A DNA stretch of 46,416 bases from Candidatus Nomurabacteria bacterium (lineage in GTDB: Bacteria > Patescibacteriota > Minisyncoccia > Phycocordibacterales > UBA9973), in NCBI GenBank assembly GCA_943356675.1, contig CALRFQ010000007.1, positions 1-46,416 on the forward strand, read 5' to 3'. The notes beneath the pieces are model-generated. The model saw nothing but the letters and a program-made list of their open reading frames with translations, made no database searches and was not told the DNA's origin. This document shows, in pieces, positions 13,066-33,470 of this stretch (positions are counted from its first letter, which is position 1; each line of letters starts with the position of its first letter). A program made the position numbers and the translations under genes.

Positions 13066-13659
13066 ATGACAAAATACACAGCAAAAGAATTTAATATTGG
13101 TGAATTAAAAGGAATATCTGCGAAGAACATTGAAGAGCATTTGAAACTATATAAAGGTTATGTAAATAATGCGAATTTAGTATTAGAAAAAATCGGTGAA
13201 TATATGGCAGACTCAGAGAAAAATGCTTATGTTATTGCTGAACTACAAAGAAGATTTTCATTTGAATTCAATGGAATGCGTAATCATGAAATATATTTCA
13301 ACTCACTATCTGGTGGGGCAAAAAGTCTTCCAGCAGATTCTAAACTAAAAGTACAAATCGAAAAGCAAGCACCATCATTCGATGCTTGGTTTGGTGGATT
13401 TAAAATACTAGCTATGACTCGCGGAGTGGGATGGGCAGTTCTATACTGGGATAAAAGTATGGGGGAGCTCACTCATGCATGGGTAGATGAGCAGCACCTT
13501 GGCCAACTGAATGGTCTTACTCCAGTTCTTATGCTCGATATGTGGGAGCATGCATTTGTATACGACTACCCAACATCTCAAAAGAAAGATTATGTGGAAG
13601 CATTCTTCGCAAACCTAAACTGGGAAGTAATCGAAAATAATTTTCTTAAGGCTCTTTAG
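13066..13659 (+). CDS. Fe/Mn-type superoxide dismutase family protein
   Basis: NHEIYFNSL...AWFGGF...GWAVLYWD...LTPVLMLDMWEHAFVYDYPTSQKKDYVEAFFANLNW. Confidence 0.9.
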   Translation: MTKYTAKEFNIGELKGISAKNIEEHLKLYKGYVNNANLVLEKIGEYMADSEKNAYVIAELQRRFSFEFNGMRNHEIYFNSLSGGAKSLPADSKLKVQIEKQAPSFDAWFGGFKILAMTRGVGWAVLYWDKSMGELTHAWVDEQHLGQLNGLTPVLMLDMWEHAFVYDYPTSQKKDYVEAFFANLNWEVIENNFLKAL

Positions 13660-14953
13660 GCTTACGAAAAATATACCAAAAGATAAATACGTATAGTAAA
13701 ACAGTTCCCCAGAGTGGGAACTGTTTTATTGTGGCGCTAGCAAATGGCAAGATTGCGAAATAATGAATAACGATAAGTACATATTTGAGCATTATGTATG
13801 AAACATATGCGAAAGGTAGTGCAATGATATGTGATAGGTAGCCGAGCATGCCGGTAATGAACCCGCCAAACATTATGTAAGGCATAAGTGGCAGGATAAG
13901 CACATTGGCAGGCAGTGAAACGAAAGAAAATATACCAGTAGTATAAAGAAGGAGTGGTAAGACAATAATATTTGCAGCGAGAGTCGTCGCCACGATTTCT
14001 CGTAGTCCTAATTTAGGAGTGATGAAACGCACCCAGAGTGCTACTTTCGGTGAAAAGAAAATTATTCCAATAGTTGCAAGGAATGAAAGCTGGAATGAAA
14101 TGTCAGAAATTACACGAGGATCATATGCCACCATAAGGAGCCCTGCAATTACTAATCCTCTGCCAGCGTCATAGGTGCGCCCTGTGGCACGAGCGAAAAG
14201 CGCGAGGAATGCCATGATGCCGGCGCGCACGGCAGTAGCCTGCGCGCCGGCAAGTAATACAAATAAAATTACTGTAACAATACCAAGCCAGATAGAAAGT
14301 GCTCCGCCAATTAGAAAGCCAAAGAACTTCATCACACCTTCGGCCACTATCGTCACATTGTATCCAGATAGTGCAATGATGTGAATCGTACCAGTCGTGA
14401 TGAATTCCTGCTTCTCCCCGCTCGAGAATCCTCCCTTGCTCCCTAGTATCACTCCATTCATTAAAGAACTCTCTGGTAGCGGAATTAAATTTGCAATATT
14501 TTTCTCGAAACTGTCGCGGAATTTATAGAGCACCCGTATTAAAGAATTCCCACCTCCTCTACTTTGCACCTCAACATTCGCCTTCTCAATAATAAAATAT
14601 ATATCTTTATTTGCTAAGTAATTTACATAATTAAATTCCCTACCATTTTGCCCCATAAAGTTCTCAGGTGTCGTAAGTAGCCCCGTGACTTTCACAGTAT
14701 CTCCATATGAAACTTCAGTATCCGTCGGCACAATTGCAAGCACAGAGACCTCTTCCCCTTTTGGTTTCACCTCTATCCGAGCATTCCATTCTCTTACATC
14801 TGGTGAGTCCATTACCATCCCAACGAGTGTAACCTTTCTACCTACAGCATCAATATAAAATTGTGGAGGTTTGGGCGTGAAATAAAAATACCTCACGCAC
14901 GCGACGATAATTAAAATAAATACTATTGCAATTTCTCTTGATTCGATGCGCAT
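13646..14953 (-). CDS. comEC: ComEC/Rec2-type competence membrane domain protein (no MBL domain)
   Basis: DUF4131-like N-terminus (KVTLVGMVMDSPDVREWNARIEV...), LMNGVILGSKGGFSSGEKQEFITTGTIHIIALSGYNV. Confidence 0.9.
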   Translation of the reverse strand: MRIESREIAIVFILIIVACVRYFYFTPKPPQFYIDAVGRKVTLVGMVMDSPDVREWNARIEVKPKGEEVSVLAIVPTDTEVSYGDTVKVTGLLTTPENFMGQNGREFNYVNYLANKDIYFIIEKANVEVQSRGGGNSLIRVLYKFRDSFEKNIANLIPLPESSLMNGVILGSKGGFSSGEKQEFITTGTIHIIALSGYNVTIVAEGVMKFFGFLIGGALSIWLGIVTVILFVLLAGAQATAVRAGIMAFLALFARATGRTYDAGRGLVIAGLLMVAYDPRVISDISFQLSFLATIGIIFFSPKVALWVRFITPKLGLREIVATTLAANIIVLPLLLYTTGIFSFVSLPANVLILPLMPYIMFGGFITGMLGYLSHIIALPFAYVSYIMLKYVLIVIHYFAILPFASATIKQFPLWGTVLLYVFIFWYIFRKPKEP

Positions 14954-21276: not shown

Positions 21277-21792
21277 TTAATATGCGCTTCGCAATATTAT
21301 AGTATCATAATAATTTGCTGTCCTGTGGTCTTTACCCTTATTGTCTTTAATAGTCATTTCAATTTTTATTGCACTACCAGAAGTGGTCGTAATATTTCTG
21401 AAAAACAAAGAGGTGGGTACTATGTTCTGTCCAAGCAAATTCCCCTGCAGTACACCGCCGTAATACATATCTATGGCATTATTCTCATACACAAATTTTA
21501 CAGTTCTTGCTGTTCCAGAACCATCAGTACTGTCTAGCTCAAGTGTCCCTGGTGTCACACTAAAAACACTGTTTGATACGTTCACTCCACTTGCCTGTCT
21601 TATTTCTCTTGCCATACGCTCCATTGCAGTAGAACCAGACTCTTGTAAATCTCTATTTGTCTGAGAATTTGAAAATGTACCCACGACAATTGTAAATGAA
21701 GTAATAACAACACCCGCAAGCATTACGAAAATTGCCACGTAAATCAATATTTCCAATAATGTAAAACCTGATTTTTTATTTGTATATTTCAT
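21277..21792 (-). CDS. Prepilin-type N-terminal cleavage/methylation protein (PilW/PulJ-like)
   Basis: KKSGFTLLEILIYVAIFVMLAGVVITSF. Confidence 0.88.
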   Translation of the reverse strand: MKYTNKKSGFTLLEILIYVAIFVMLAGVVITSFTIVVGTFSNSQTNRDLQESGSTAMERMAREIRQASGVNVSNSVFSVTPGTLELDSTDGSGTARTVKFVYENNAIDMYYGGVLQGNLLGQNIVPTSLFFRNITTTSGSAIKIEMTIKDNKGKDHRTANYYDTIILRSAY

Positions 21793-21793
21793 A

Positions 21794-22297
21794 TTAGCTG
21801 AAAATATCTGTTATATAAAATGATAAGGTTTTCGACACAGTGGTACCACTAGAGAGCCAAGACACATTTACATCCACTTTTTTAGTACGAGTATCCACTG
21901 TGCCTGTGGATGCTATATCATCATTCGCATCTCGGTTTACTTCACTAAGCTGAACCTTTCTCGTAAAGAAACTATCTATAGTGTTTGCACTAGTAGATAA
22001 TGACCATGTATTAGTAGTATTATTATAAGCTAAATAGTATGTCGTTCCTATTGTTAGAGCAGATATATTAGTCCAGCTTGCATCACGAATAGTTTTCACA
22101 GCTTCTGCTCCTTCTTCAAGTATGTAGCTGGCTTGAGTTTGATGAAGTGCTCGCTGAGAAAGAGCCAAACCTTTTGAAGCTGCAGAGACTATTGAAAAAG
22201 TTATTATAGATATGATAGCAGAAGCAACCACTACTTCCACCAGAGAGAATCCTTTATTCGAATTTTTATAAAAATTATTTTTCATATTAATTTGCAC
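21794..22297 (-). CDS. Prepilin-like protein (PilV/PulI-like)
   Basis: NKGFSLVEVVVASAIISIITFSIVSA. Confidence 0.87.
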   Translation of the reverse strand: MQINMKNNFYKNSNKGFSLVEVVVASAIISIITFSIVSAASKGLALSQRALHQTQASYILEEGAEAVKTIRDASWTNISALTIGTTYYLAYNNTTNTWSLSTSANTIDSFFTRKVQLSEVNRDANDDIASTGTVDTRTKKVDVNVSWLSSGTTVSKTLSFYITDIFS

Positions 22298-22754
22298 TTA
22301 CTACCCCTAGTTTATTTATAGTAATAATTTTTTTAATTGCAGAGTTTGAAATTAGGTTCACTTGTATTGTACCATACTGACTCGTATCTCCACTAAGTCT
22401 ATCAAATTTAACATCAGATCCACCACCATTGAGTGAGATATTTCCTGACGGAGCTGTGACGAGTGCATCGAAAGTTATAACTATATTTGAAGCTGCATTT
22501 GTATCAAAAGTGCCACCAGTGAAAAGGACTGCCCGAGTATTCTCAATATGTACTGAGTAAAATGTACTACTTTTGGACAATAATGTATCGTTCCGTGCTT
22601 CATTAAGAAGCGTGACCACATCTTCGGCGGTATTCCTTACAACTTGTCTATTTCTAAAATCTGAAAAAGAAGGAATTGAAACTGCGAATATTATTCCCAT
22701 AATCGCTAAAACTATTATTATTTCAAAAAATGATACTCCACGATTATATTTCAT
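22287..22754 (-). CDS. Prepilin-like protein (GspH/FimT-like)
   Basis: RGVSFFEIIIVLAIMGIIFAVSIPSFSDFRNRQ. Confidence 0.87.
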   Translation of the reverse strand: MKYNRGVSFFEIIIVLAIMGIIFAVSIPSFSDFRNRQVVRNTAEDVVTLLNEARNDTLLSKSSTFYSVHIENTRAVLFTGGTFDTNAASNIVITFDALVTAPSGNISLNGGGSDVKFDRLSGDTSQYGTIQVNLISNSAIKKIITINKLGVVSAN

Positions 22755-22755
22755 A

Positions 22756-23973
22756 TTATTTAATAGTATCCATTACTGAATACATAGGTGATATCATAGA
22801 AACCGCAAAGAAGCCGACCGCTCCTCCTATGAAGACCATAAGCACAGGCTCAATAATAGTAGAAAGATCTTTTGTTTTTGCATCCACCTCTCCTTCGTAA
22901 AAGACTGCAATATCGAAAAGCATTTTCGATAAGTTACCAGTTTCTTCGCCCACTTCCATCATTTCGCCCATCATTACAGGATATAGATTTGTATTGGCTT
23001 TAAATATTTGTGAAAGTGTTTGACCCTTCTCAATAGCAACAATAGCATCATCAATGACTTTTTTATAAAATTCATTTTGCAAGACTTCTTTTGTGATTGC
23101 GAGACCTCTCGAAATAGGAACTCCAGAAGATAGCAGTGAGGATAATGTGCGAGCTGTACGAGCTGTGTTTACTTCATTTATCATTGTGCCCAGGAGCGGC
23201 ATTTTTAGTAAAATTAAATCCATATAATGTTTCGTAGCTTTGAGTTTCGATGCACCGATGAACAAAGATACAATTCCGGCCACACCAATTGCAAACAACA
23301 ATATATGATTCTTTAGTGTATCTGAAATCCAAATCACAAATTGTGTAGATGATGGAAGAGTAGCTCCGGTATCTTTAAAAGTAGCCGTGAGTGTCGGTAC
23401 CACATAGATCATCATAAGTATTCCAATAAGGAATATGGCACAGAGGATAATAGACGGGTACATAAGAGCACTTTTTATTTTCTTATTTAATGCGTATGTC
23501 TTCTCGAGAGTCTCACCAATTTCTTTAAGTGTCGAAGACAGATTTCCAGATTCTTCACCCGCACGCACCATAGATACAAAAAGAGGGTTAAAAGTATCTG
23601 GGAATTTTGCAGCACCACCGGAAAGTGTGCCACCTTTGTTTAATTCTTCCACGAGAGCATCAATAATTTCTTTAAACTTCTTATTCTTTGTCTGGCGAGT
23701 AAGCACCGTGAGTGCACGAGAAAGTGCAAGTCCGGCTTGAAGCATTCCACTTAAGTTCTTTGTGAACATTATCTTATCTTGAAGCTTTACACTACCTCCA
23801 AAGCTAATATTATTTAATTTTGTAAAAAAATTATTAGATTCAGCAGGCTCAGTCATAAGTGGCACTTCGCCATTGTCGCGGATCTGCTTAGCGGCTGCAA
23901 ATTTATCAGTCGCGTCGATTACGCCTTCATGTAATTTACCATCTTTGGTTTGTGATTTAAATTTGAATTTCAT
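22756..23973 (-). CDS. pilC: Type II secretion system F family protein / PilC
   Basis: MKFKFKSQTKDGKLHEGVIDATDKFAAAKQIR...FTKNLSGMLQAGLALSRALTVL...MVRAGEESGNLSSTLKEIG...GEETGNLSKML. Confidence 0.93.
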   Translation of the reverse strand: MKFKFKSQTKDGKLHEGVIDATDKFAAAKQIRDNGEVPLMTEPAESNNFFTKLNNISFGGSVKLQDKIMFTKNLSGMLQAGLALSRALTVLTRQTKNKKFKEIIDALVEELNKGGTLSGGAAKFPDTFNPLFVSMVRAGEESGNLSSTLKEIGETLEKTYALNKKIKSALMYPSIILCAIFLIGILMMIYVVPTLTATFKDTGATLPSSTQFVIWISDTLKNHILLFAIGVAGIVSLFIGASKLKATKHYMDLILLKMPLLGTMINEVNTARTARTLSSLLSSGVPISRGLAITKEVLQNEFYKKVIDDAIVAIEKGQTLSQIFKANTNLYPVMMGEMMEVGEETGNLSKMLFDIAVFYEGEVDAKTKDLSTIIEPVLMVFIGGAVGFFAVSMISPMYSVMDTIK

Positions 23974-23976
23974 TTT

Positions 23977-25734
23977 TTATTCAGATATAACACGCAAAAT
24001 TTCCTCTGTGGTTGTGGTTCCTTGCACTGAGAGCAAGATGCCATCTTCAAGCATTGTCATCATTCCCTCTTTCTTCGCTTGAATTTCAATAGCGTCCCCT
24101 GCAGAACCCTTAAGAATTAGTTCTTTAATAGCTGGAGTAATTTTCATAACTTCGTGAATACCTACACGCCCTTTGTATCCATCTGGAGCTTCGTCACTTG
24201 GTTTCGGTCTATAGAACGGTATCTTATCCCAAGTTGCGTCTTCGGGCACAATCTTTTCTAGTTTAAGGAAACCAAGCATTCTGTCGAAATCAATAACCCT
24301 CTCAAGTGCTACTTTCTCTGTCTCATTCAGAAAATACTGTTCTTTATTATCTGCAAGACGACGCACAAGACGCTGAGCGATGATAGTCTTTACTGTGGAG
24401 ACGATAAGGAAAGGCTCCACTCCCATATCTATCATACGAGGAATCGCGCCCGCAGCAGAGTTCGTGTGGATAGTCGAAAGCACAAGGTGCCCAGTAAGAG
24501 CAGCATTCACGCCGAGTGATGCTGTCTCACCATCGCGGATCTCTCCCACCATTATTATGTCTGGGTCCTGACGAAGGAGCGTGCGGAGGCCGTTCGCAAA
24601 TGTTAATCCAATCTCTGACTTCGTCTGAGTTTGATTTATGCGATTCATTTGATATTCTATCGGGTCTTCAATTGTAGAAATGTTTACATCAGGCGTATTC
24701 AAAATATCGAGCATTGTATATAGAGTAGTCGTCTTTCCGGATCCTGTCGGTCCTGTGGCAAGTAGCATTCCTGTGTGCTGTTTCATACCTTCATGAATTC
24801 TCTCAAGAGCTTCACCGTGAAATCCTAGACCTTCAAGACTGAAACCTTTTGAATTTTCGCGGAGCAAACGAATAACCGTCTTCTCTCCATAGTATGTCGG
24901 AAGCGTAGAAACACGGAAAGATACATTGCCAGAATCGCCAGTAATTTTGAAACGTCCATCTTGTGGCAAGCGCTTCTCGTCGAGCTTAAGGTTCGAAAGC
25001 ACTTTAATACGCGCTGTAATTCCCGCTGCAGTGTCCTTCGGTAGCACCATCGCATCTCGCAATATTCCATCGATACGATAACGCACCACCATCGATGCCT
25101 CACCTGGCTCAATATGCACATCAGATGCACCTTGAAGTATAGCGTGAGAGATAAGAGTGTCCACAATTTTAATGATCGGTAAATCCTCTGCCATTTCCTT
25201 GAGTTCCTTCTCGGTTTTAGGTTCACTACTCCCATCATCATCATTTAAAGTATTTAAAGCTACTGATTCTTTTTTAATAATATCTTGGAAATCAGCTTCG
25301 AGAGTTTTCTTGTAGAGTGACAATGCTTCTTTAATAGAATCAGAGCTTGTGAGGCGTGGCAATATATGGCCACCAACCTTCTTCTTAATAAAATCAATCA
25401 CAGAAAGATCATCCACATCAAGCATTGCAACTTCAAGTCCTTTCACAGTTTGCTTGTAGGCGATGATGTTATTCTTTCTTGCGATAGGCTCAGGGATGAG
25501 TGAGAGCACTGCAAAATCTATCTTCTCCCCCTTCAAGCTTACAAATGGAATACCGAGCACCACTGCTTCCATAGAACGTAAATCTTTTTCTGTAAGAGTG
25601 CCTTGTGACATTAAATATTCACCGATGCCTTGCTTAGTATCGCGAGCTTTTTTCACCGCCATTGCCAAATCAGTTTTGGATATTAATCCAGAGTCCGCAA
25701 CTAATTGCAAAAATTTAGTTTCATCAACTTGCAT
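23977..25734 (-). CDS. pilB: Type II/IV secretion ATPase GspE/PilB
   Basis: ASDVHIEP...LLATGPTGSGKTTTLYTMLDIL...STIEDPIEYQM...LRQDPDIIMVGEIRDGETA. Confidence 0.95.
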   Translation of the reverse strand: MQVDETKFLQLVADSGLISKTDLAMAVKKARDTKQGIGEYLMSQGTLTEKDLRSMEAVVLGIPFVSLKGEKIDFAVLSLIPEPIARKNNIIAYKQTVKGLEVAMLDVDDLSVIDFIKKKVGGHILPRLTSSDSIKEALSLYKKTLEADFQDIIKKESVALNTLNDDDGSSEPKTEKELKEMAEDLPIIKIVDTLISHAILQGASDVHIEPGEASMVVRYRIDGILRDAMVLPKDTAAGITARIKVLSNLKLDEKRLPQDGRFKITGDSGNVSFRVSTLPTYYGEKTVIRLLRENSKGFSLEGLGFHGEALERIHEGMKQHTGMLLATGPTGSGKTTTLYTMLDILNTPDVNISTIEDPIEYQMNRINQTQTKSEIGLTFANGLRTLLRQDPDIIMVGEIRDGETASLGVNAALTGHLVLSTIHTNSAAGAIPRMIDMGVEPFLIVSTVKTIIAQRLVRRLADNKEQYFLNETEKVALERVIDFDRMLGFLKLEKIVPEDATWDKIPFYRPKPSDEAPDGYKGRVGIHEVMKITPAIKELILKGSAGDAIEIQAKKEGMMTMLEDGILLSVQGTTTTEEILRVISE

Positions 25735-25837: not shown

Positions 25838-26971
25838 TTACTCCTTAATAAACTTAGAAACATAGTTTCCGATCTGTATAAAATACATGCCGGATAAAAA
25901 AGAAGAAATATCAATTTGGTTACCGTATGCAACCATTTCAATACTTTTACCACTCATATCAATAATGATAATTCTAGAATCTTCAGGAAGATTCGGAATA
26001 CTCAATACGTTATGAGCAGGATTTGGATAAACCAGAAAATCAGAGGACTGATATTTGTGGTTTATACCATTAGGTTTCGAGATCTTTTGATCAATCCTGA
26101 ATACTGGTAATGAAACCAGTTCATTAGATGGTGAGCAGTGGTCGAATGATTTAAGTTCAAGCGTAGCTTGAATAGAATCAATCAACTTTACTTGCATACT
26201 ATCGATTTGATAAAAGATTTGTACATCGAGCGTCTCACCAGGCTTAAGGCTGTCAGGCTTGGTTAAATTAATAGCAGAAGAAATGTTTGAGTAAATGGTA
26301 TCTCTACCAATTACATACTTTAAATTCTGAACTTTCTTTACATCTTCTTTTTTTATTATAAGGGTTAACTTATCATTAGAAAGCGATGTATTTGTAGCTA
26401 AAAAGTTAACATGTCCTGCTTTCACAAACACATTTGACTGCAGTGTTTCCACCCTGTTGGGGGTGAAATACTGAGTACTTACGAGATCACCCAAAAGGAT
26501 TTGAGTTTTGATACTCGTGTCCAGTCGTTTAAATGAGCTTCCTAGTACATACGAACCAATTTTCATACCGATAATTTTTAGTTCAATTTGTCCAGTTGGG
26601 CAAATTGCAGTACTACCTTGCGGTTGTATCAAATCAACATTACACAAGAATTCAACTGTATGCACTGAGGATTTATACCATTTTTTAGAAACAGCAAGAC
26701 TTAGTACAGAATCACTACCGATTCCAATATCACTGGAGCTTCCATCTAATAAGATTTTAAATCCTGCCAAAGAATATCCCTGACAAGTTGCAATCGCTAC
26801 AAAAGGAATAAATTCAACAGAGTCAATATTGATTGTTACATCAAATTTGAGCATGCTGAAATTAGATTGCCCGATTTTCGGACCAACACCTGCAGTTTTA
26901 ATACAGGTAAAATTTTGTCCATACCCTTTTATCATAAAAAGGGTAAGGAAAAGAAACATTAAACTTTTCAT
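25838..26971 (-). CDS. Bacteroidota-like secreted protein with T9SS type A C-terminal sorting domain
   Basis: Signal peptide MKSLMFLFLTLFMIKGYGQ; C-terminus FLVYPNPAHNVLSIPNLPEDSRIIIIDMSGKSIEMVAYGNQIDISSFLSGMYFIQIGNYVSKFIKE (Por secretion tail pattern). Confidence 0.88.
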   Translation of the reverse strand: MKSLMFLFLTLFMIKGYGQNFTCIKTAGVGPKIGQSNFSMLKFDVTINIDSVEFIPFVAIATCQGYSLAGFKILLDGSSSDIGIGSDSVLSLAVSKKWYKSSVHTVEFLCNVDLIQPQGSTAICPTGQIELKIIGMKIGSYVLGSSFKRLDTSIKTQILLGDLVSTQYFTPNRVETLQSNVFVKAGHVNFLATNTSLSNDKLTLIIKKEDVKKVQNLKYVIGRDTIYSNISSAINLTKPDSLKPGETLDVQIFYQIDSMQVKLIDSIQATLELKSFDHCSPSNELVSLPVFRIDQKISKPNGINHKYQSSDFLVYPNPAHNVLSIPNLPEDSRIIIIDMSGKSIEMVAYGNQIDISSFLSGMYFIQIGNYVSKFIKE

Positions 26972-27085
26972 GATTGATATAGGGGGTTTACAAGAATCCA
27001 TTAAACTCTTGAAAACCACCTATATGTTTGTCAAAATACTATCAAAATTGACAGAAATACCAATTTACTTTATTGTATAAAATTT

Positions 27086-27116
27086 AAAAAGACTAGTCAA
27101 TAGCTAGTCTTTTTAA
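27086..27116 (-). terminator. Intrinsic terminator downstream of the 468-aa surface gene
   Basis: AAAAAGACTAG-TCAATAG-CTAGTCTTTTT. Confidence 0.8.
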
Positions 27117-27137
27117 AAGGGTATAGCTGTGGATAAC

Positions 27138-28544
27138 TTAGAACGATATCTGAGCGTAGCTTGGGCTACCATTTCCACTACTAGCCCCAACAACACCTCC
27201 ACCATTATCATAAAAGCTTCTAGTTCGTCTATTCGTAGACTCACTTATACTGTTAATTACTCCTCCGTGTGAAAGCTTTATCTTATATACATCACCTGGT
27301 GTTACTGGCACAATTGCCTTTACATATCCACCTCCACCTCCACCAGAGTAGCCAGCATCAGCTTGATTACAATCTCCATCGCTAGTGCCACAAGGCACAC
27401 TTTTAGCTTCATCTGCATCGCCCCCCTTGCCACCAGCTCCAGAGCCACCATTGCCATATGAACCACTTATGCCATCTTCACCATAGTAACCCCAACCATT
27501 GAGTGGTGATAATGGTGAATTAGTACAGAAATCCGTTAAACCATATTTATTTATTAGATTATTTAAATTCGAGCCAGCATGACCACCCTTTCCTCCTGGA
27601 GTAGGAGATCCGTAATAGCCAGATTTACCACCAGCACCACCGTCACCACCATTTACCGGTATTTTGTATGTATGTGTCGTAGTTCCACAGAAAAATGTAC
27701 TCGTAGTCGTTGACCCACTAGCGCTACTACCCGCACCACCAGCTCCACCATTTACTGAAGTTAGGTCTGTAATACTTCCTGAAGATATAGAATATCCTCC
27801 TCCATTTGCACCGGTGTGTGCTGATGTAGCGCCGTATCCACCTTTCGCTCTAAGTACGGTATTATTTGTTGAATCAATCAAATACGCGGACCCACCTATT
27901 ATACATCCATAGCTTGATCCACTGTTACAAGTGCTACTATAATTCACATCTGCATCTGGGCTATAATTTACATTAGAGTTATTGTAGCCATAACCAGCTC
28001 CTCCAGCACCCCAAAGCTCTACAGTAATATTTGTAATACCTACCGGCACCTTAAACTCTTTTGTTATATATGCTTTATTCATATTTGCAGTACCACAAGT
28101 ATAGCTTGTAGGAGTAAAGTAATAGCAATCCTTTCCATCAAAGGTCAATTTCAAAAATCCGCACGGTGCAAGTGCCCCAGTATCGTCGGCACATATGGAA
28201 GTTCCTTCTTGCGCTGGACCCATAATGTCGATAGCTCCATGCACATCGAGAGCTTCGGTAGGATTGCTATTTAGATATGAGCCAGTAAATGCTAAACCCA
28301 ATTTACCTGTAGTTGTAAGTTTTGCGACAGAGGGTGAGCTGGCGTTCAAGTCTCCAATAGTCATACCCACTACACTGAGACCTCCGCGTTTTGATTGTGT
28401 GCCACTACTAGAAAGCACTTGAGTAAGAGGTGCAGGCACTATCGCAAAAGAAGTACTCACACCGTCAAGTGGCGATCCGTAAGCTACGAGTGAGCTAAAA
28501 GTTAGAAATACTAGTATGAAGATAAGTGTGGGTATTTTTTTCAT
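27138..28544 (-). CDS. Secreted glycine-rich surface protein (paralogue of 28936..30333)
   Basis: Signal peptide; VPVGITNITVELWGAGGAGYG...GGAGG repeats...GGGGGGYVKAIVPVTPGDVYKIKLSHGG. Confidence 0.75.
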   Translation of the reverse strand: MKKIPTLIFILVFLTFSSLVAYGSPLDGVSTSFAIVPAPLTQVLSSSGTQSKRGGLSVVGMTIGDLNASSPSVAKLTTTGKLGLAFTGSYLNSNPTEALDVHGAIDIMGPAQEGTSICADDTGALAPCGFLKLTFDGKDCYYFTPTSYTCGTANMNKAYITKEFKVPVGITNITVELWGAGGAGYGYNNSNVNYSPDADVNYSSTCNSGSSYGCIIGGSAYLIDSTNNTVLRAKGGYGATSAHTGANGGGYSISSGSITDLTSVNGGAGGAGSSASGSTTTSTFFCGTTTHTYKIPVNGGDGGAGGKSGYYGSPTPGGKGGHAGSNLNNLINKYGLTDFCTNSPLSPLNGWGYYGEDGISGSYGNGGSGAGGKGGDADEAKSVPCGTSDGDCNQADAGYSGGGGGGYVKAIVPVTPGDVYKIKLSHGGVINSISESTNRRTRSFYDNGGGVVGASSGNGSPSYAQISF

Positions 28545-28555
28545 AATATTTTAAA

Positions 28556-28930
28556 TTAACATCGGATAATATAAAGTGATTGATTTCCTCCAGCACCTAG
28601 ACACACAGGGCTGATACCGTTACCCACAAGTAAGTCGGAGCGAATATTACCGTTCACAGATAATCTCACATCACTATCTATATTTGATTTTGAAATTCCA
28701 ACTGCACTAAAATTTATTGCGACAGAGGAAGAAGCATTGGCACCAGAAAGTAATTCATAAAAACCAAGTACATTGGGTGACGATTGCACAGTGGCACTTG
28801 TGTCGATGGCAGTAGTTTCATTGCCACCAGTAGGCGCAGATGATGGCTCAGAGAATGAAGCGAGCCCTGCAGCAGCAAACACAAGAATGAAGGCTGAAAG
28901 CAAGAATATGATTGTAGAATTTATTTTCAT
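28556..28930 (-). CDS. Small secreted/anchored protein
   Basis: MKINSTIIFLLSAFILVFAAAGLASFSEPSSAPTG signal-like N-terminus; lies in the surface-protein gene run. Confidence 0.6.
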   Translation of the reverse strand: MKINSTIIFLLSAFILVFAAAGLASFSEPSSAPTGGNETTAIDTSATVQSSPNVLGFYELLSGANASSSVAINFSAVGISKSNIDSDVRLSVNGNIRSDLLVGNGISPVCLGAGGNQSLYIIRC

Positions 28931-28935
28931 AATAA

Positions 28936-30333
28936 TTAATATGTTATTTTAATATAACCATCGCCACCTTTTCCTGAAATAGCTCCACCACCGATCTGCT
29001 TTAAACTGCAGTTTGTACCTGAGCAAGAACTATTTTGAGGTTTTCCGCCGCCACCAATTTTCATATAAAAGACTTGGCCTGGTGTCACAGAAATAGTAGC
29101 TTGGGCATAACCGCCTCCACCACCACCTGGCACAGACAGACCTCCATCACAATTAAAATCAGGATCATTTACAATAGCGTCACAATTTGAAGTTCCCACC
29201 ACAAGAGCTGATGCTCCGCCGCGCCCACCGAATCCGCCGCCGCCGCCGCCTTTCACACCATTCGCTCCATCTCCACCCTTACGATGATATCTAACAGTGG
29301 CTGGCATATAACTAGATGGTATTTCGTCACTGGTTAAATCTTGCAATAAGGCACATGCTGATGTTGTGAGAAATGTCCAAGAAGAGTAACCTGCATTATT
29401 ATAATCATTACTCGAAAGTGGTCCGTGCCCACCACCATTTCCACCTTGAGCCTGACTGCCATTACCTGCTTTACCACCATTTCCACCTTGATTACCATCT
29501 CCACCAATAATAGGATTGAAATTATAACCACCGCAAACTATGGGGGCATTTGAATGCAAAGTTGGAGAATTTTTATTTACAGATACCACATCACCATCCT
29601 CACCATTTATCGCAGTTGCACTACTTACACTTCCTGAATACGAAGCTGTGCCCTTAACTCCTGGATCAATAGCTGTAACAGCACCATGACCACCCGTTGC
29701 TACAAGTGATACACCAGCACCTTTAAAATAAGACTCATCACCATCGTCTATTCCAGTACCCTCTAAGTTTAGAGATCCATAACCAGCTCCACCTCCACCG
29801 ATAACTTGCACTGTAATAGAACCCATTCCAGGAGGCACAATAAATGAATCATAAGTGGTCTGATCTCCTGCTCCACCTAATCCAAATTCACGCACTCCAT
29901 TATTTGAACAAAGAATTAATTTACCATTCGGATCTGCACACACCAAGTGGCTAGATACATCTCCTGCGCCTGTCCAAGCAAGCGCCGTGGAGCGTATTGA
30001 GTGATATAAACTATTACCATAAGCTGTATTAGAATTATTTATACTAAGCGCAGAGCCTGTGAAACCTGCACCTATAATAGACATTTTACCTTGTGAATTT
30101 ATAGTAGTGTAGGCTCCAGAAGAATAGTTGCCCACAAGTAAGCCGACAGCATTTAAAACACCATCTTTCACCTGCACATCCGGAGATCCAGTCGTCGGTC
30201 CAATATTTATAAATGTATCAGGATTTGAACCAAGTGAGCTAGGGCGTGACATAGCCGACACATAGCTAGTAAATACTGCGAGCACAAGTCCTAGAGTGAT
30301 TGCTATTAATTTTTGTTTAAATGTTTTTGTCAT
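28936..30333 (-). CDS. Secreted glycine-rich surface protein
   Basis: Signal peptide; VPPGMGSITVQVIGGGGAGYGS...GGNGGKAGNGSQAQGGNGGGHG...GGGGGGYAQATISVTPGQVFYMKIGGGG. Confidence 0.75.
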   Translation of the reverse strand: MTKTFKQKLIAITLGLVLAVFTSYVSAMSRPSSLGSNPDTFINIGPTTGSPDVQVKDGVLNAVGLLVGNYSSGAYTTINSQGKMSIIGAGFTGSALSINNSNTAYGNSLYHSIRSTALAWTGAGDVSSHLVCADPNGKLILCSNNGVREFGLGGAGDQTTYDSFIVPPGMGSITVQVIGGGGAGYGSLNLEGTGIDDGDESYFKGAGVSLVATGGHGAVTAIDPGVKGTASYSGSVSSATAINGEDGDVVSVNKNSPTLHSNAPIVCGGYNFNPIIGGDGNQGGNGGKAGNGSQAQGGNGGGHGPLSSNDYNNAGYSSWTFLTTSACALLQDLTSDEIPSSYMPATVRYHRKGGDGANGVKGGGGGGFGGRGGASALVVGTSNCDAIVNDPDFNCDGGLSVPGGGGGGYAQATISVTPGQVFYMKIGGGGKPQNSSCSGTNCSLKQIGGGAISGKGGDGYIKITY

Positions 30334-30344
30334 AATTTTAAAAA

Positions 30345-33300
30345 TTAAAATGGTTTATACTTCGGCCTAAATGTGGGTGGAGCAACGACTGTACATATTG
30401 TGCCACTATCATTTTGAGTTATATTTAAAATCGCAGTATTTGAGATATTGTCTGTGACTGCGATTTGGCCCACGCGTGGTGAGGCACCCGGGTTTTGAAT
30501 CCAAGATATATTCATAGGCATAGATCCATAGCCACTTCCATTATTTACTGTGAGCCAACCTTGATTTGATGACGCGGTCCAGCTACCTGTAGTATTCACA
30601 TTTACATTTCTACTTCCAGCAAGGTCGCTCACACAGCTTATTGTGGAAGGGTTTACACTAACACTATTGTTTAGATTTATTCCATCTTGCATTATTGTTG
30701 TATTTGCAAATATTGAAGAGTCGTGAATGTCAGTTACTTTTATGTCAGCAATTATTGGTGAGGTAGTATTATTTTGGCCAAAGCTTAATGATAAACTCGA
30801 ATTACCATTACCTATAAGTGGCGTAATGGTATTGATCCAGGATATTCCAGGATATGTAACACTCACTTGCCAATCAGTATTTGAGGAAATCACCAAAGTA
30901 GCTGAGGTATTTAATGCTGGGATTACTGACCCAGAACTAATATTCACATAGTCACCGCATCCAATACCGAAACACAATGCATTTTGAGTTATGGTGGCAG
31001 TATCAAAGTTTGCTGGATCATTGTCGTCTGTAACTTTTATATGAACATCACGAGATAATGGCAAAATGTTTGGAGAATTTATATGTATTGGGAATGAGAA
31101 ATTGCCATACATTGCACTTATACCTGGATCATCCGCCCAATTATCATCAAGAGTAAGTGTCCATTTCACATTTGATGAAACATTGAACGGTGGTGTATCT
31201 CCAGTAAAAATAGAGGTGAAAGCTGTTTGTGTTTTAGGTGTGATATGAATTTCAGGATTTGTACCAAGCTGATTTACTGTATATACAGCATTGGCACATC
31301 CTGCAGTAATATTTATAGTAGCAGTACGAGATGTCTTACCGAAATTCTGATCATAAGTAGGAGTGAATGAGGATGGGGAAGAATTTGTTTGAAGCCATGA
31401 ATCTGAAGAAATTTCAGTCCAACTTGGAACATTTGTAGTCACACTCACAGTAGATATAGTCCCCGAGGTATCATTCACATTTTCAAGAATAGATGATAAC
31501 ACTATTGTATCTGTGCATAATGCACCATCTTGTCTTATTGTTGCAGTGTCGAAAATGGTTACATCGTTATCATCCGTAATTTTTATATATGCTGTGCGTG
31601 AAGATGAAGTTAAGTTTGTTGAGAATGAAACATTTATCACACCCAAATTAGCACTAGATATAGGATTTATAGAAGTAATCCAAGGAGTAGTACCAGATGG
31701 GTATGATACAGTAGCAGTCCATGACACATTTGAGTCCACATTAATTGTTGTCGTTGTATTTGTATCTAGCATATTTTGTGAAGTAGGTGTGGCAGATATA
31801 TATGGGACCACCGATCCAGCAGCACAGAAATCAATAGTAGTACTTTTAATAGAAGTATTTTGAGCGACACCACTTGTAATCACATTAATGGAAGATATTA
31901 AATTATTAGTTGGTATTGGATTAATTGGTGTTATTTTTGATGCAACAATAGCATTATATGCTGCTTCAGAAAGTGAAATGTGTGCAACGATAGTATTATA
32001 CAAACCATTTGTAAGAGTAAAGTTTGATGGTGTGATTGAAGCAGTCCCTACAGTTGCACTTGCATATGCATCTATCATACTTATGAAACCATTGAGCGGA
32101 GTGACTGTCATAGTAGCGTCGGCAGTATACTTTGCAGTTTTCCCTGAGCCACTTTTCACTAGTGCTGCACAAGATGGAGCCACACTAATGCCATAGTTCG
32201 GTGAACACATACTCACGCTGGCTCCAGGGCTAGAAACCCTAGATGATAGATTTGCGCCCGAGCCATTTGTACAGGATAATTTATAAGTTGTACTTACATT
32301 TGTGAAATTTGTATCTACAAATGCCCCGGAAGCTCCTGCTCCGGAAGTGTTACCAGTAAGTGTATATGCACCACTTGATGGATAATAGTATGTGGTTCCA
32401 CCAGCTGGAGTAGCTTCTACACGGCAAGTCGGAGTTGGATCATTCACATTCCAATCTATAGAAGGTGAACCTCCACCTGTTTGCCTACAAGCACCACCAT
32501 AAGTCATATACGGAGTGAGAGGGATAGTAGATATAGAAGCATAGCTACTTGTCGCAGTTATATTATTTACATCAGTACATTTTAAAGCAAAAGATGTCAT
32601 AAGCACAGATGTTGGTGCTAGCTTTACATTTATACCACTAGCAGAAGTAGCTGTGCCAAAATTCACAGCATTCCAATCAGTATTATTTGGTACACCACCA
32701 AGACCTTCACATTTCACTGGAATAAATGTACTTGGGCTCGTTGACCATGTGAAACTAGCAGTATTGCCTGAAAGTACACTTGTATTAGAAGGAGTAAGAG
32801 TTACTGTTGGACCGACAGGAGGTGTACTGCAAGAGATACAATCAAAAACTCCTCCAGAATCAAGACTAATACTTCCTGCTGGATTTAGGTCAATCCATCC
32901 GACAACTTTTGATCCCCACCAATATCCAGTAGTACTATGAATAATAGTACCAGAACCAGAAAATAAATTACCCAAACTACTCGCAACATTTGTACTACCA
33001 ATAGATGCACCATAAGCAGGACTACTATTTGAAAGGTGAATCCAGCCGTCAGCTCCACCGTTATTTGTGCCGGCAATCTTCATTGAAAGTACTCTTGCCC
33101 AGCCAGAAGACCAATTGTTTGTATAAGAAGACACACTAGTACAGCTTCCAGAAGGTGGACAGCTTCCCCAATCCGCTGGATTAAAGCTTATCCAGCCTAC
33201 ATTGTCGTTCCACGCATATCCGCTCACCACACCTTGTGCTGTAGTCTTTACTCCGTACCCTATTGTGCCACAAGTAGAACTAAGCCCTGGGTTCTCGCAG

Positions 33301-33470
33301 TTATTGAAACTTACCCAGCCAATGTTATTACTCCAAGCATTACCGAAAATATTGTCACCAACTGAAGCACTAGCCACAGTAGGCACAGCTATATAAAACA
33401 ATACAAAAACTACTATAGGTAGTATGTGTTTGATGATTTTTGTAAAAATATTTTTGTGCATTTTATTCAA
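30345..33470 (-). CDS. 1041-aa surface protein: N-terminal GxAWxxNxGWxxF repeats and about five BACON-like repeats
   Basis: IFGNAWSNNIGWVSFNNC, VSGYAWNDNVGWISFNPADWG; repeated (S)WxxxxxP...xxSRTAxIxxTDDNDxxxFDTATIxQxG. Confidence 0.75.
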   Translation of the reverse strand: MNKMHKNIFTKIIKHILPIVVFVLFYIAVPTVASASVGDNIFGNAWSNNIGWVSFNNCENPGLSSTCGTIGYGVKTTAQGVVSGYAWNDNVGWISFNPADWGSCPPSGSCTSVSSYTNNWSSGWARVLSMKIAGTNNGGADGWIHLSNSSPAYGASIGSTNVASSLGNLFSGSGTIIHSTTGYWWGSKVVGWIDLNPAGSISLDSGGVFDCISCSTPPVGPTVTLTPSNTSVLSGNTASFTWSTSPSTFIPVKCEGLGGVPNNTDWNAVNFGTATSASGINVKLAPTSVLMTSFALKCTDVNNITATSSYASISTIPLTPYMTYGGACRQTGGGSPSIDWNVNDPTPTCRVEATPAGGTTYYYPSSGAYTLTGNTSGAGASGAFVDTNFTNVSTTYKLSCTNGSGANLSSRVSSPGASVSMCSPNYGISVAPSCAALVKSGSGKTAKYTADATMTVTPLNGFISMIDAYASATVGTASITPSNFTLTNGLYNTIVAHISLSEAAYNAIVASKITPINPIPTNNLISSINVITSGVAQNTSIKSTTIDFCAAGSVVPYISATPTSQNMLDTNTTTTINVDSNVSWTATVSYPSGTTPWITSINPISSANLGVINVSFSTNLTSSSRTAYIKITDDNDVTIFDTATIRQDGALCTDTIVLSSILENVNDTSGTISTVSVTTNVPSWTEISSDSWLQTNSSPSSFTPTYDQNFGKTSRTATINITAGCANAVYTVNQLGTNPEIHITPKTQTAFTSIFTGDTPPFNVSSNVKWTLTLDDNWADDPGISAMYGNFSFPIHINSPNILPLSRDVHIKVTDDNDPANFDTATITQNALCFGIGCGDYVNISSGSVIPALNTSATLVISSNTDWQVSVTYPGISWINTITPLIGNGNSSLSLSFGQNNTTSPIIADIKVTDIHDSSIFANTTIMQDGINLNNSVSVNPSTISCVSDLAGSRNVNVNTTGSWTASSNQGWLTVNNGSGYGSMPMNISWIQNPGASPRVGQIAVTDNISNTAILNITQNDSGTICTVVAPPTFRPKYKPF

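Follow-up and report, generated by a model that had tools for sequence, protein, structure and literature searches.

T9SS-type C-terminal tails on secreted proteins of a CPR family: resident, fast-evolving genes with a possible role in partner-cell recognition

Introduction

The closest described counterparts of the protein treated here are the type A cargo proteins of the Bacteroidota T9SS, which are recognized by the profiles TIGR04183 and PF18962. Substrates of the Bacteroidota signal peptidase I mostly expose a glutamine after cleavage, known as the Q-rule, and this residue is itself no sorting signal (PMC5837995). PorV binds the C-terminal sorting domain (CTD) of the cargo through its extracellular loops, and no energy input is required for purified CTD fusions to attach to the isolated translocon (PMC10994853). 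The attachment complex of PorU, PorZ, PorV and PorQ is situated at the outer surface, where it cleaves off the tail and joins the protein to A-LPS (PMC8545088).

No earlier account of T9SS tails in CPR (Patescibacteria) turned up in our literature search. CPR cells are generally regarded as having no outer membrane, which is the seat of the T9SS. Here we describe such a tail protein encoded in the window, i.e., the whole stretch of 46,416 nucleotides that was analysed, which is one contig of a fragmented source genome of 719 kb (98.5% complete). We then compare it with 76 tail proteins collected together with their flanking genes, 64 of which come from the CPR family of the source genome (the source family). 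We take this family to be CPR on the original premise, on its gene content and on the small size shared by all genomes in its phylum sample.

A tail protein in the window

The original prediction, made from the letters of the window, was that this gene encodes a protein with a T9SS C-terminal sorting domain, and the profile searches bear it out. The tail occupies residues 330–392 of a 393-aa form, at the extreme C-terminus, and matches TIGR04183 with 42.6 bits (E 4.3e-11, cut-off 23) and PF18962 with 41.2 bits (E 2.1e-10, cut-off 27). A chance match is excluded, because the same model, run over 380 small genomes sampled across the phylum, was positive in only 7 cases, of which 2 belong to the source family; the ORF is thus confirmed to carry a genuine T9SS type A sorting domain. 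The 393-aa form starts at an upstream GTG (position 27019), and the ATG at position 26971 is the more likely start (Table 1).

An AlphaFold2 model of the tail, built from 48 CPR tails, reached a pLDDT of 89, and its three top matches in the PDB are solved CTDs of T9SS cargo (8glj_D, 8glk_D and 8qb1_A, probability 1.00). The E-values of these matches are modest (best 2.8e-3, none reaching 0.001), as expected for a domain of 80 residues, and the CPR tail is predicted to take the Ig-like beta-sandwich fold of the CTD. A single-sequence fold of the full-length protein gave a pLDDT of 43 and was left unused.

The N-terminus of the protein is hydrophobic and was read as a Sec signal peptide, and the predicted cleavage between KGYG and QNF would leave the Q-rule N-terminus QNFTCIK. 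Between signal peptide and tail lies a body of about 300 residues that matched nothing in Pfam or NCBIfam. A homolog search of 147 source-family genomes returned one marginal short match (E 0.008) and nothing else, and a donor search of 396 genomes drawn from the phylum that includes our Lentimicrobiaceae control genome returned no homolog. A scan of the genome collection with the window protein gave a single hit, at the level of the tail, and none for the body, which on these comparisons appears to be an orphan.

Table 1. Features of the window and of related loci. Positions refer to the window unless another contig or locus is named.
Feature	Position	Strand	Evidence or remark
minor-pilin-like genes	21277-22754		next after pilC/gspF-like gene
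pilC/gspF-like T4P platform protein	22756..23973	(-)	part of a pilB-pilC-minor pilin cluster
pilB-like type IV pilus ATPase	23977..25734	(-)	directly downstream of tail gene, 103 bp away, same strand
T9SS-tail protein gene	25838..26971	(-)	377 aa from ATG; intact ORF
longer ORF of the same gene	25838-27019	(-)	393 aa from GTG
T9SS type A C-terminal sorting domain, YPNP...G...L..GxY...K	25844..26032	(-)	PF18962 / TIGR04183 above cut-offs
Sec signal peptide MKSLMFLFLTLFMIKGYG	26918..26971	(-)	read from sequence; predicted cleavage before Gln
terminator-like hairpin, 14 pairs and T-rich tail	27083..27117	(-)	consensus scan only; between upstream surface gene and tail gene
run of secreted surface proteins	27138-33470		upstream of tail gene
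secreted glycine-rich surface protein, upstream neighbour	27138..28544	(-)	translation; no Pfam match
second secreted glycine-rich protein of the same type	28936..30333	(-)	no Pfam match
1041-aa secreted protein, three BACON matches	30345..33470	(-)	PF13004 E 5.6e-7
ComEC/Rec2-like DNA uptake protein	13646-14953	(-)	TIGR00360, 81 bits
second tail gene of the source genome	C11:19836-20024		283-aa protein starting MKTISLTSKLASLLVLIFMCFSGKAQCP
glycine-rich secreted protein of G024	L057 9515-10876		adjoins tail genes
tail-like protein missed by the family model	L062 8699-10378	(-)	...LYPNPVQAGSP...GMYSVYIDGGWQKLVVIP
anchored secreted proteins	L037, L041, L047, L048, L070, L076, L087		back-to-back with tail genes

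Genomic surroundings

The tail gene lies, as had also been claimed, between a run of CPR surface-protein genes upstream and pilB downstream. The terminator-like hairpin that separates it from the nearest surface gene suggests that it is transcribed as a unit of its own. The two glycine-rich proteins of the run are similar in length and share long glycine-rich C-terminal halves, and a secreted protein of similar kind adjoins the tail genes of another genome (G024). The BACON domain owes its name to the Bacteroidetes, and the protein of the run that bears three matches to it may be another Bacteroidota-flavoured gene. The ComEC/Rec2-like gene is situated close to the T4P cluster, which would fit the gain of genes through natural competence.

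The window pilB shares 71–77% identity with full-length orthologs from 15 further genomes of its genus. What lies upstream of pilB differs among these relatives, and no tail gene occupies that slot, so that a conserved position beside pilB was rejected and the window gene appears to be a species-level insertion.

Distribution within the family and the phylum

Tails were detected in 53 of the 147 source-family genomes and 18 of the 24 genera at E<=1e-5; the genomes are not independent of one another and the count of genera is the safer figure. A family-tuned profile, built mostly from the family's own tails, raised this to 59/147 genomes and 21/24 genera (E<=1e-4), and both genome counts take in partial and weak matches. 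Outside the source family only 5 of roughly 370 genomes of the phylum carry a tail (Fisher 6e-27). Enrichment of the trait in one CPR family, with near absence from the remainder of the phylum, is therefore well supported. The L062 protein has a tail that the family model missed, and the counts are thus probably underestimates. Within the family about 60% of the genomes are without a detectable tail, as are 16 of the 24 genomes in the genus of the window (tails in the other 8), which indicates that the trait is either dispensable or dependent on the partner.

G093, from another family of the same order, carries ten tail genes (on L095, L096 and L097), several of them as tandem pairs or triplets, and represents an independent expansion outside the source family. 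Two genomes of other CPR families, G300 (L103, L110, L112) and G188 (L106), have FCB-type tails (YPNPFRDNT... and NYPNPFNPETE...), which suggests independent acquisitions elsewhere in the phylum. An Ignavibacteria-like tail, NYPNPFNP, occurs in G055 and G059 of genus g17 and in G076 of another family; other g17 genomes have Bacteroidota-like tails.

A second Bacteroidota signature is found at the N-terminus. By a simple heuristic, 61 of the 64 family tail proteins have a Sec signal peptide, and, again by a simple heuristic, the predicted cleavage site of 49 of 61 is followed by Gln. For the remaining secreted ORFs of these CPR contigs that have a predicted site, the proportion is 14/129 (Fisher 2e-21), and some of these 14 resemble further tail or partner-derived proteins. 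Since the glutamine is not a sorting signal, the fact that it has been kept is better read as a mark of origin or of stability than of routing.

Tail genes as residents of CPR genomes

Among the alternatives first listed was a chimeric assembly, to which contamination of the bin by Bacteroidota contigs may be added. The source genome is indeed fragmented, and most genomes of the set are draft assemblies. However, the source genome has a second tail gene on another contig, flanked by a UvrC-like gene (uvrC) and a D-Ala-D-Ala ligase gene (ddl). Tail genes are also embedded within contigs, with conserved genes around them (uvrC/ddl, ssb/efp, rplK, pilB), and they recur in dozens of independent genomes with syntenic flanks, on contigs some of which exceed 150 kb. 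An artefact of this sort is barely conceivable; we reject it, and the chimera is effectively excluded by the uvrC/ddl gene together with the dozens of unlinked cases in the family's independent genomes.

Tail genes evolve several times faster than their neighbours at the protein level. In syntenic pairs from related species the bodies are 28–79% identical, whereas the flanking genes are mostly 85–97% identical at comparable synonymous divergence; some neighbours of tail genes are also fast-evolving (33–63% identical). For 36 of the 76 bodies the set contains no relative; others fall into small groups (Kelch and beta-propeller-like, Ig-like). The tails themselves, where dS could be measured, show a dN/dS of about 0.15–0.6, mostly below 0.4, with the dS values of tail-gene comparisons near saturation. 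PNP, G and GxY are near-invariant in CPR tails, which thus remain close to the Bacteroidota consensus.

Synteny extends across genera. Beside rplK a tail gene occupies the same place in G010 (g1) and G025 (g3); the bodies of this pair are 33% identical and the tails 79%, with dN 0.10 and dS 0.65 in the tail and dN 0.73 and dS 1.55 in the body. Several pairs likewise show a lower dS in the tail than in the body, and for this reason recombination or exchange of tail modules may, besides purifying selection, contribute to keeping the tails alike. The slot between ssb and efp holds unrelated tail proteins in G030 (g8) and G056 (g20). On the basis of conserved CPR flanks and syntenic orthologs, it is well supported that several tail genes of the family are residents. 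This also bears on the proposal of a recent transfer from Bacteroidota: a single recent event is too small an explanation for a family-wide trait of which several genes are syntenic residents.

A different account of the same data holds that partner DNA is integrated and T9SS cargo genes are gained and lost repeatedly, as passengers, with the tail persisting as an idle vestige or a stable beta-sandwich cap. The patchy presence in the genus (16/24 genomes without tails), the scarcity of orthologs (36/76 bodies lacking a relative in the set) and the mixture of tail subtypes in g17, where two genomes have the Ignavibacteria-like form and others the Bacteroidota-like one, speak in its favour, and Bacteroidota are among the inferred gene donors to Patescibacteria (PMC12455944). 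It is harder to reconcile with tail-gene ORFs that are nearly all intact, with syntenic orthologs whose conserved tails last across large synonymous distances, and with a correlation between the GC3 of tail genes and the GC3 of their flanks (Spearman 0.50, n=63, mean difference -0.01). A divergent pairing with anchored CPR surface proteins, described below, repeats across genera and weighs against it as well. Uptake at random would be expected to carry in numerous non-cargo genes for every tail gene. We regard this account as rather unlikely.

Search for T9SS machinery

The original prediction called for a search of T9SS components, which in our case covered SprA, the channel, and PorU, the sortase, with matches judged to E 0.1. 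No match to SprA was obtained in 27 tail-bearing CPR genomes (0/27 over the cut-off), and PorU was over its cut-off in 0/37 CPR genomes, where tail-region or weak partial matches alone appeared. The Lentimicrobiaceae genome used as positive control scored 2568 bits for SprA and 1218 bits for PorU. As far as tested with these two proteins, the tail-bearing CPR genomes therefore appear to be without a T9SS.

One could still imagine that the family has a divergent T9SS of its own, or some other equivalent that reads the tail, and conservation of the tail across many genera would then be readily understood. A search that gave such scores in the control and found neither SprA nor PorU in tail-bearing genomes argues against this, as does the presumed absence from CPR cells of the membrane that would hold the machine. 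We consider a CPR-encoded system very improbable and have rejected it.

Anchored surface proteins beside tail genes

At 37 loci the upstream neighbour of the tail gene lies on the opposite strand, and in 11 of these it encodes a secreted product anchored in the membrane by its C-terminus. The same anchored type makes up 2 of the 398 other ORFs at these loci, one of the two being also near a tail gene (Fisher 3e-11, an optimistic p-value, since the cluster had already been noticed when the criterion was chosen). Many of the anchored neighbours end in ...FLPxTxxGWL..., an anchor of the FxPxTxxGWL type, and most of those scanned (n=7) have FN3-like domains. The divergent pairs occur in genera g1, g11, g14, g15 and g16 and in two other families, and in g3 another anchored surface protein is found close by a tail gene. 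The window gene is not part of such a pair.

These pairs raise the question whether the tail has been repurposed, such that the T9SS beta-sandwich docks secreted proteins on the CPR surface, for example through the divergent FN3-type anchored protein, with no involvement of Bacteroidota machinery. The recurrence of the pairs and the FN3-like domains of the anchored partner agree with docking. On the other hand, an anchored neighbour accompanies no more than about a sixth of the tail genes (11 of about 75); the tails have stayed near the Bacteroidota consensus, with PNP, G and GxY near-invariant; and the Q-rule has been kept too, which is atypical among the remaining secreted proteins of the contigs. 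Repurposing of this kind seems unlikely to us.

A possible reading of the tail by a partner cell

The explanation that we prefer, tentatively and at somewhat short of an even chance, is that the window protein belongs to a lineage-specific secreted set in this CPR family, which bears both Bacteroidota export signatures and has kept its tails for recognition by a partner cell. The tail genes would ultimately derive from Bacteroidota or their FCB relatives and would now be resident, fast-evolving CPR genes. Given a cell thought to have no outer membrane and the lack of any T9SS found, Sec should release the tail protein at the CPR cell surface. The tail would then be kept most likely because the partner, presumably a Bacteroidota or related FCB cell, reads it.

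How the partner might do so is suggested by the machinery itself. Because CTDs are bound by PorV loops and the attachment complex faces outward, the capture and attachment of a tail protein that reaches the partner from outside would be possible in principle. A tail protein from an attached CPR cell could thus be captured extracellularly by PorV/PorU and grafted onto the partner surface, where it would decorate the partner or perhaps tether the two cells. Such grafting onto the partner outer membrane, which would amount to the use of a surface sortase across species, is possible but on balance doubtful. Partner capture would explain why tails remain near the Bacteroidota consensus in cells without a T9SS while the bodies change fast, and fast change of the body is expected of surface interaction proteins. 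Against this reading weigh the lack of a detectable tail in about 60% of the family's genomes, the orphan body of the window protein, and tail dS values that are lower than those of the body in several pairs and near saturation overall. We infer the capture mechanism from these features; residency and enrichment stand as well supported.

Partners are known for a minority of CPR lineages. A label kept in 18–21 of the 24 genera of one CPR family predicts that the partners are Bacteroidota or related FCB bacteria, which is testable, and the T9SS tail becomes a candidate for the molecular interface between CPR and partner. If the PorV/PorU of the partner reads the tail, one bacterium would be altering the surface of another by a new route. 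Even if the tail genes are passengers, the tail subtypes would still hint at the partner from sequence.

Comparison with known systems

Like the type A cargo of the Bacteroidota T9SS, the CPR tail proteins have a Sec signal, usually a Gln after cleavage, a beta-rich body and a C-terminal sorting domain with PNP, G and GxY and a predicted CTD fold. They differ in being encoded by CPR, in genomes without a match to SprA or PorU and in cells where the outer membrane is thought to be absent. Their bodies differ as well, being mostly orphan, Ig-like, Kelch or beta-propeller-like, and no clear hydrolase family is present among their 25 most frequent Pfam matches. The NYPNPFNP C-terminal signals of FCB bacteria (Ignavibacteria and related lineages) are shared by G055, G059 and G076, which differ from them in that the genes are located in CPR genomes beside CPR genes.

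Compared with membrane-anchored surface proteins of CPR, the tail proteins are likewise secreted, beta-rich and encoded close to T4P or other surface genes, but whereas the known surface proteins end in a membrane anchor, the tail proteins carry a foreign export and attachment signal at the C-terminus. Our literature search found no precedent for the use of a partner's sorting label between two bacteria. Under the preferred reading the nearest analogy would be the proteins of symbionts and parasites that carry host sorting signals, as in eukaryote-targeted mimicry, since there too the symbiont would use the address label of its partner. Unlike that mimicry, both parties here would be bacteria and the presumed reader a surface sortase.
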